64,000 nt of DNA from positions 1 to 64,000 of the forward strand of contig JAJXZL010000023.1 in assembly GCA_021780075.1 (NCBI GenBank), given 5' to 3'. The stretch comes from Acidobacteriota bacterium. GTDB taxonomy: Bacteria; Acidobacteriota; Terriglobia; Terriglobales; Acidobacteriaceae. The notes beneath the pieces are model-generated. The model was not told the origin of the DNA. It saw only the letters and a program-made list of their open reading frames with translations, and ran no database searches. The position numbers and the translations under genes were made by a program. Positions 44,169 to 46,074 of the stretch are shown here, one piece after another. How positions within the stretch are numbered: the stretch's first letter is position 1; every line of letters starts with the position of its first letter.

Positions 44169-44999
44169 TTGGAGACGCCGGAATACGACACCGCCAATGC
44201 GCCGTTGATTGAAGCTCCGCAGGAGCCAGCCGACGACTCAGCGCCAGGTACGCTGGCGCCCGCCTGGCACACCGGAGTGCTGATCGCATGGATCCTCGCC
44301 ATGTCCCTTAGCGGCTCCTCGCGGCTTGCGACACTGCACGGCGCGCCAACCCGGCTATGGACCTATGGCGTGACGGCGGCGATGGAACTGGCCATGCTGG
44401 GCTGGGTCGCGCTGGGGCTGCGCTTGCGCAGGATTCCACTGCGCTCGATCTTTGGCGCAATCGACGGAGGGATGCGCACCATAGCGCGTGATCTGGGCAT
44501 CGCCCTTGTTTTCTGGATTGGTGCGTTGATGGTTCTCGGCTCGCTGGGCATTGCCTGGGCAGGTGCTGAAGCGGTCATCAAGCGTACCCATCCAGCTGCG
44601 GGACAGACAGCGCCACAGGTGAGCTCGCAGCGACAGACGGCGCGCATGCTGGCGCAACTGGCGCCTGCCAACGCTGAAGAGGTTGTGGGCTGGGCGCTGC
44701 TTTGCATGCTGGTCGGCATGGTGGAGGAGACGGTATTTCGCGGTTATCTGCAGCGCCAGTTCAGTGCGTGGGCACATGGCGGCGTGCCAGCCGGCGTGAT
44801 ATTTTCCGCGCTCATCTTCGGCGCGGCGCATGGATACCAGGGCGCGCGCAACATGGTGTTGCTTGCAGTTTTCGGCGTGCTTTTCAGCCTGCTTGCGCAT
44901 TTTCGCCGCAGCCTGCGCGCGGGAATTTTCGCGCACAGCTGGCACGATCTCATCACGGGTGTGGCGCTCGGACTGCTCAAGTCGCACCATCTTCTTTGA
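44169..44999 (+). CDS. CPBP-family intramembrane glutamic protease
   Basis: 276 residues. The TTG start follows GAGGAG by eight nt. About seven or eight membrane helices. The four family motifs are present: EExxxR (EETVFRG, Glu about 186-187), FxxxH (FGAAHG, His about 221), and HSWHD near the C-terminus. Related to CAAX processing proteases and bacteriocin-immunity proteins; its substrate is unknown. Confidence 0.87.
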   Translation: METPEYDTANAPLIEAPQEPADDSAPGTLAPAWHTGVLIAWILAMSLSGSSRLATLHGAPTRLWTYGVTAAMELAMLGWVALGLRLRRIPLRSIFGAIDGGMRTIARDLGIALVFWIGALMVLGSLGIAWAGAEAVIKRTHPAAGQTAPQVSSQRQTARMLAQLAPANAEEVVGWALLCMLVGMVEETVFRGYLQRQFSAWAHGGVPAGVIFSALIFGAAHGYQGARNMVLLAVFGVLFSLLAHFRRSLRAGIFAHSWHDLITGVALGLLKSHHLL

Positions 45000-45072
45000 A
45001 GATTCGAAGGCGATGCGCACTTCGGTAATAAATAATTGTTGCCACTTTTTCCACTTCACATACGTTTTTTGC

Positions 45073-45101
45073 TTGACACTGAGCAAGCGTGAATCTATAC
45101 A
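45073..45101 (+). promoter_or_regulatory. Near-consensus sigma-70 promoter of the Lys/Ala peptide gene
   Basis: TTGACA (45073-45078), exactly 17 bp, then TATACA (45096-45101). A start near 45108 would give a leader of about 55 nt with a small inverted repeat GTTGCA / TGCAAC (45121-45139). Confidence 0.75.
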
Positions 45102-45163
45102 TTCCTCAACTGCAATTAGTGTTGCAGTTTCGATGCAACCCATCGACAAGGGAGAATAGGCAA

Positions 45164-45235
45164 ATGGCAACGAAGAAAGCAGCCAAGAAGGCACCCGCGA
45201 AGAAGGCCGCGAAGAAAGCCGCGAAGAAGAAGTAA
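45164..45235 (+). CDS. 23-residue Lys/Ala-rich basic microprotein
   Basis: ATG at 45164 with AAGGGAG and spacer, stop TAA at 45233. The sequence is MATKKAAKKAPAKKA followed by AKKAAKKK, entirely Met, Ala, Thr, Pro and Lys. It resembles the tail of histone-H1-like or AlgP/HU C-terminal KAAKK repeats. It has a near-consensus promoter and a strong terminator of its own, so a discrete transcript of about 190 nt is likely. Nucleic-acid binding by charge is inference. A small RNA with an incidental frame is the alternative. Confidence 0.65.
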   Translation: MATKKAAKKAPAKKAAKKAAKKK

Positions 45236-45256
45236 CGGGTAATCCAACCAAAAGGC

Positions 45257-45296
45257 AACACTGAGGGGACGCTTCCAGCGTCCCCTCAGTGTTTTT
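45257..45296 (+). terminator. Strong terminator of the microprotein gene
   Basis: Perfect 16-bp stem AACACTGAGGGGACGC / GCGTCCCCTCAGTGTT with loop TTCCA and a T-run, 22 bp past the stop codon. Confidence 0.9.
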
Positions 45297-45342: not shown

Positions 45343-46074
45343 ATGACACGCCGCCGCTGGATTGCCGAACACTGGGATGAAGCCACCGCAACACTGGTGG
45401 GCACGCAGGCCGAACACATGATCCGCGTACTGCGCGCGCAGCCGGGCATGGAAGCCGATGTGGTTGCGGGCGGTCACGTCTTTCATGCCGAACTGGCAGC
45501 GATTGAAAACGGCGAGGTGCGCTTTAACCTGCTGGCCGAGCTCGAAGCCGAGCCTGCGCTGCCCGTAACGCTGGTCATGGCCATCTACAAGTTTGACCAT
45601 ATGGAGTGGGCAATCGAAAAAGCCACCGAGCTGGGTGTTGCCACCATCGCTCCGATGATTGCGCGGCGGACCGAGAAGCATCTGGCGCAGGCAGCGGCAA
45701 AGCGCGCCGAGCGGTGGCGCCGCATTGCCAGGGAAGCAGCCCAGCAGGCGCGACGCTCTGATGTGCCGGTAATCCACGATCCGGCCACGCTGGAGTCGCA
45801 CGTGCGTCAGGCGTCCACGGCGACGCGCATCGTGCTCGCCGAGCAGGAGCGCTCCACCACGCTGCGCTACGCTCTCGAGCAGGCGATCGCCGCAGCGGGC
45901 GAAGAGACGCCGGTGCTGGAGATTGCGATTGGACCCGAAGGCGGATGGGCTCCAGCGGAAGAGGCTTTGTTCGATGCCAACGGCTGGCGCGCAGTGTCGC
46001 TGGGGCCGCGCATTCTGCGCGCAGAGACTGCGGCAATCTCCGCCTTGGCTGTGATTGGTTCGTTTCTGGAATAG
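45343..46074 (+). CDS. rsmE: 16S rRNA m3U1498 methyltransferase RsmE
   Basis: 243 residues. The SPOUT-knot C-terminus shows EIAIGPEGGWAPAEEALFDANGW and LGPRILRAETAAISALAVI. An N-terminal PUA-like domain begins RRRWIAEHWDEATATLVGTQAEHM. Uses S-adenosylmethionine to methylate U1498. The ribosome site is weak (GAGGAAC). Runs tail-to-tail with uxaA. Confidence 0.93.
   Translation: MTRRRWIAEHWDEATATLVGTQAEHMIRVLRAQPGMEADVVAGGHVFHAELAAIENGEVRFNLLAELEAEPALPVTLVMAIYKFDHMEWAIEKATELGVATIAPMIARRTEKHLAQAAAKRAERWRRIAREAAQQARRSDVPVIHDPATLESHVRQASTATRIVLAEQERSTTLRYALEQAIAAAGEETPVLEIAIGPEGGWAPAEEALFDANGWRAVSLGPRILRAETAAISALAVIGSFLE

Follow-up and report, generated by a model that had tools for sequence, protein, structure and literature searches.

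A candidate dual-function RNA with a Lys/Ala microprotein frame in the class Terriglobia

The window, a stretch of 64,000 nucleotides from an Acidobacteriota contig, contains at positions 45,073–45,296 a short gene whose transcript is probably a dual-function RNA: the mRNA of a polycationic microprotein and, at the same time, an RNA that functions itself. Sequence comparison establishes the unit and its conservation, coding selection on its frame, covariation of its leader hairpin and repeated loss of the frame with the RNA retained. The elements of the unit and its immediate neighbours are as follows.

44169..44999 (+), CAAX protease (Rce1-like, PF02517), the upstream neighbour, not always adjoining in relatives
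45063..45101 (+), promoter: T-run, CTTGACAC, 17-nt spacer and TCTATACATTC, with conservation of 97% or more in most columns of the 77 aligned genus and family units
45109..45128 (+), hairpin 1 (ACTGCAAT/TAGT/GTTGCAGT), 8–9 bp, at the predicted RNA 5' end, supported by fold and covariation
45130..45146 (+), hairpin 2 (TCGATG...CATCGA), TCCATG..AATGGA in other genera and missing in some
45148..45159 (+), Shine-Dalgarno region AAGGGAGAATAG, including GGGAG at 45150–45154, which is retained even where the ORF is absent
45164..45235 (+), microprotein ORF MATKKAAKKAPAKKAAKKAAKKK* (23 aa, 11 Lys), with ATG at 45164 and TAA ending at 45235, frame held in most lineages
45252..45259 (+), AAGGCAAC motif ahead of the terminator, with GGCAA motifs repeated in ORF-less relatives
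45258..45296 (+), intrinsic terminator with T-tail, core GGGGACGC/GCGTCCCC, supported by fold, genome count and conservation over the order
45343..46074 (+), RsmE-type rRNA methyltransferase (PF04452), the downstream neighbour, starting 107 nt past the microprotein stop

The original prediction described a complete, independent unit, and its leader hairpin, ribosome site, 23-codon frame and 16-bp terminator stem are each present where they had been placed. The promoter consists of a -35 element, TTGACA (45073–45078, + strand), and a -10 element, TATACA (45096–45101), separated by 17 nt. These elements also lie where predicted, but the description 'near-ideal' was generous: TATACA shares only 4 of its 6 positions with TATAAT and does not end in T, which accounts for the absence of this promoter from the output of a stock promoter scan. 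The RNA is predicted to start at about position 45108, that is, on hairpin 1, and to be about 190 nt long here and 125–210 nt in relatives. Its predicted fold is more stable than 200 of 200 dinucleotide shuffles (z -4.7). The terminator stem (45258–45292) is a perfect 16-bp helix with a 3-nt loop, followed by T4. The core GGGGACGC...GCGTCCCC is conserved over the order and occurs a single time in the 3.9-Mb genome, so the stem is not a terminator motif in general use there. The prediction of an independent unit with its own promoter and terminator is supported at the sequence level. The whole array recurs in the genus, where a search with 281 bp of DNA located it in 79 of 80 genomes. Together with the single genomic occurrence of the terminator core, this recurrence lies far beyond what chance would be expected to produce.

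In an alignment of 77 units, the blocks conserved at 97% or above are the T-run with CTTGACAC, TCTATACATTC, AACTGCA with its opposite arm, GGGAGAATAG and ATGGCAAC. A pattern scan of named genomes matched at least 118 stretches; because the pattern fixes AAGGGAGAATAG and ATGGCAAC, conservation of these two segments is given by construction in that set, and it is seen equally in sets that were not chosen by pattern. R1, a covariance model built on the leader, matched 132 of 150 Terriglobales genomes, with one copy per genome and a single exception. The refined model (R2) recovered 10 of the 18 R1 negatives, raising the count to about 142 of the 150 genomes sampled, and matched 159 of 299 Terriglobia genomes, including many families of other orders. 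The unit is almost always present in one copy per genome, and the promoter layout is identical in R1 and R2 matches throughout the order and the class. Among loci fetched from other families, 19 of 20 carry a Lys-rich short ORF behind promoter, hairpin and Shine-Dalgarno sequence. Five genomes of genus g44 and one of g34 gave no match to the unit, R2 included, and the RNA is therefore not indispensable everywhere.

Within a sample of the phylum, R1 found no match beyond the order. When R2 was run on 40 genomes from other classes it gave weak matches only (best E 0.005), and a short Lys-rich ORF accompanied none of them in the interval searched; we regard no match outside Terriglobia as convincing. 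The conservation of frame and terminator that had been proposed as a check on the gene is found for the frame across the class, and for the terminator over the order but not outside it. Terminator and linker sequences lack conservation outside Terriglobales, so any function of the RNA may be confined to that order.

Where it is present, the frame is, on comparative evidence, genuinely coding and under purifying selection class-wide. Among 163 distinct ORFs, single-base steps comprise 24 synonymous changes and 1 non-synonymous change, against an expected synonymous fraction of 0.21–0.27, indicating that the frame is selected as coding sequence. Over this set of more than 160 ORFs the stops remain in frame, lengths change by whole codons and the start stays at Shine-Dalgarno distance. 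The Lys/Ala microprotein gene proposed originally is supported by this selection and by conservation across the class. At codon 2, 159 of 161 Ala codons read GCA, compared with 386 of 952 Ala codons elsewhere in the frame, a bias that is due in part to the pattern fixing ATGGCAAC and that points to a constraint on this site beyond the amino acid, at the level of the RNA.

The composition of the peptide over the 163 ORFs (K 52%, A 34%, T 7%, P 4%) agrees with the earlier comparison to histone H1 tails, which are likewise K/A/P-rich, repetitive and basic. This composition is constant, while length ranges from 11 to 76 residues in relatives and is 11–32 aa as a rule. Two main forms occur in the order, MATKKAAKK...KKK (19–30 aa) and MATKKKAKKKKKH (12–17 aa); other orders contain MKNATKKKAVAKKKAPAKKKAAAKKKK, the 11-residue MAAKKKAKKKR and one 76-aa version. 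The last belongs to a genome of family f3 (locus L423 of G604), where it stands behind the same promoter and leader and apparently arose by repeat expansion. A length that varies freely at fixed composition speaks for an unfolded polycation, and the peptide is strongly basic and probably unstructured. The 23- and 27-aa peptides have no Pfam match and the 76-aa peptide gave an E-value of 4.9; matches to NCBIfam are at chance level (E 7.9 and 1.7). The models for H1-like families (PF07382 and NCBIfam H1-like) do not claim the peptide as a member.

The leader is constrained as RNA. Hairpin 1 covaries strongly: over 70 distinct sequences its covariation score is 0.503, compared with 0.221 for shuffled and at most 0.108 for slid controls. 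The RNA matches no Rfam family above the gathering threshold, and none at permissive E-values, so the reading as a known Rfam family is rejected. Elsewhere, a sub-threshold match to the Cyano-2 RNA family at L303:1386-1508 (+) (27.7 bits, gathering threshold 40, E 0.0046) is probably due to chance. In g64 RNAs (L334, L281, L335 and L297), GGGAG folds with the bases that follow into an additional, third hairpin. Its CAGGCAAA loop is constant and unpaired and may be a site for a protein or a kissing-loop contact.

Of the 80 loci tabulated for the order, 22 have lost the Lys-rich frame: all those of g31 and g64, which we take to be Terriglobus-like and Granulicella-like, respectively, two of g44 and two of g34. 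Further ORF-less loci are L381–L385 and, in another order, L416. At L416 (G598) the ORF was lost independently (GGGAGAATCGAGCCAACGAAGTAA) and a very short RNA is left ahead of the terminator. ORF-less units retain the promoter, 5' hairpin, GGGAG, GGCAA repeats and terminator. The frame has been lost through start-codon loss and frameshifts, and remnants are visible, for example at L294 (GAG GCG ACA AGA ACG GCG AAA AAG TAG). A tree of RsmE requires at least four switches between the coding and the RNA-only state. Loss of the frame is the simplest explanation for them, because coding units are found in related families and in other orders. The original prediction held that a conserved RNA structure without a conserved frame would refute it and point to an sRNA. 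This is the situation in one part of the tree (Terriglobus-like, Granulicella-like and other genera), while elsewhere the frame is conserved. Because the RNA outlives the peptide in that part, 'microprotein gene' alone is an incomplete description, and retention of the RNA by several lineages that lost the frame suggests that it has a function separate from the peptide.

In g64 the pairwise identity of the region between GGGAG and the terminator is 92%, versus 37% upstream and 59% downstream, and a 1-nt indel (AACCAAGGC/AACCAGGC) breaks any frame. GGCAA occurs 60 times in the 22 ORF-less linkers versus 14 expected, and 32 times in the 3' UTRs of coding units versus 9 expected, counts that ignore kinship among the genomes. 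In ORF-less lineages these repeats could in part be remnants of AAG-GCA codons. No alternative ORF shared among the ORF-less RNAs was found; candidates lacked a Shine-Dalgarno sequence, ran through the terminator or occurred in a single genome. Relocation of the peptide was also considered and rejected, as other ATGGCNACNAARAARGC sites in ORF-less genomes mostly belong to longer DUF6496/H1-like proteins or to unrelated longer frames, in a search that starts diverged from the ATGGCNACNAARAARGC pattern would escape. The DUF6496/H1-like proteins at such sites occur in coding genomes too.

A simpler account is that the polycationic peptide is the sole function, that leader and terminator serve expression and mRNA stability in the manner of the ompA 5' stem-loop, and that ORF-less copies are dying remnants. 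Strong coding selection fits this well, as do the presence of the peptide class-wide, with unrelated terminators in other orders, and an RNA that begins on a hairpin like stabilised mRNAs. Dying remnants, however, would not be expected to keep a linker far more similar than its upstream flank, as in g64, or to retain promoter, GGGAG and terminator over many species of g31, g64 and g44. We consider this account possible but doubtful.

The position of the unit raises the alternative of a leader or attenuator of rsmE in which a Lys-rich leader peptide senses lysine or translation. In most Acidobacteriaceae-type genomes the unit is linked to rsmE, lying just 5' of it with the terminator between them, and in g31, g64 and g44 rsmE still adjoins most ORF-less RNAs; in the window, a serine dehydratase is also among the neighbours. 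This linkage is not constant: in g34 and the short-peptide genera the unit lies away from rsmE or faces it at 3–4 kb. ORF-less RNAs retain the terminator and the fold shows no anti-terminator, and we reject an attenuator as very improbable. We give equally little credence to a non-coding sRNA whose frame is an accident of AAGGCA-type repeats; several lineages do keep the RNA without the frame, GGCAA is repeated and codon 2 is constrained at synonymous positions, but the 24:1 ratio, in-frame stops, whole-codon length changes and Shine-Dalgarno-spaced start speak against it. A very small ribosomal component comparable to bTHX, with basic residues binding rRNA, would suit the size and charge of the peptide, its occurrence as one copy in almost every genome and, weakly, the neighbouring ribosome-maturation gene rsmE, but is made highly unlikely by the 11–76 aa length range with no fixed fold or motif, by several losses and by the absence of any sequence match among solved structures.

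The dual-function reading finds its closest parallel in SgrS/SgrT. The sgrT start codon is mutated in Escherichia coli O157:H7 and sgrT is absent from Yersinia, with the sRNA kept in both (PMC4021124). Shared features are a short RNA, here predicted to be independent, a small ORF towards its 5' end, a conserved region between ORF and terminator and loss of the ORF in some relatives. The two systems have no sequence relation, and they differ in product (a polycation here, a transporter inhibitor in SgrT) and in range (a class here, enterics for SgrS); our assignment to the dual-function class is a prediction from sequence, with base pairing putative. Acido-1 and Acido-Lenti-1 (Rfam RF01686 and RF01687) are Acidobacteria RNAs found by comparative genomics (PMC2864571); in contrast, the RNA of the unit belongs to no Rfam family. 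The peptide resembles histone H1-like proteins (Hc2/PF07382 and the KPAA tail of AlgP) in being K/A/P-rich and of variable length. It differs in being free-standing, at 11–32 aa (76 once), with no other domain and no Pfam or NCBIfam assignment.

Longer proteins with H1-like stretches also occur in these genomes. L106:2997-3695 (-), on contig C16 of the source genome at about 95,000, encodes a protein of 232 aa whose N-terminal part is acidic and which contains long AKKAPAKK repeats. It is weakly HC2-like (PF07382, E 1e-6, below the cut-off), and the genome that carries the unit thus also encodes an H1-like protein of full size. Another set of proteins (L356, L357, L359, L361, L363–L366, L369–L372 and L375; 79–149 aa) starts with MATKKA.., has an H1-like Lys-rich head and shares a common RKYSPAAGK..EMREMK..KSGRSGKKVTSRKQAIAIGLSEARKAGKK end (DUF6496, PF20106, scored for L356). 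These proteins are present in ORF-less and coding genomes alike.

We propose that the unit would be transcribed from its own sigma-70-type promoter into a short RNA that starts with a 5' hairpin, probably protective, and has a strong intrinsic terminator at its 3' end. Throughout most of the class Terriglobia the RNA would be translated into the Lys/Ala microprotein. Because its composition is conserved and its length is free, the peptide most likely acts as a polycationic binder of nucleic acid or polyphosphate, similar to a free H1/AlgP-type tail. This role is suggested by the observations that KPAA peptides bind DNA in vitro and that the AlgP tail places polyphosphate granules (PMC9239181). 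The RNA would most likely act in trans, possibly assisted by Hfq, by way of the single-stranded region with GGGAG and GGCAA. The genome encodes Hfq: the matches on contigs C2, C34 and C49 of G000 (L353–L355) comprise a canonical Hfq and two that are weaker and Hfq-like. A bolder version of the dual-function reading, which we hold to be unlikely, is that an ancient class-wide RNA carries its own polycationic peptide, down to 11 residues, as a partner or condensing cofactor, that the two act jointly on nucleic acid or polyphosphate and that in some lineages the job has passed to the RNA alone.

If transcribed and translated, the microprotein, at 11–32 aa as a rule, would form one of the smallest protein families whose conservation spans an entire bacterial class. 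Sequences of such composition tend to be discarded by gene finders and similarity filters, and a gene as tiny as this would easily be overlooked in standard annotation. Acidobacteriota are a major soil phylum for which we found little small-RNA biology described, and the natural coding and ORF-less versions of one RNA provide a ready comparison of what the peptide may contribute with what the RNA may do alone.
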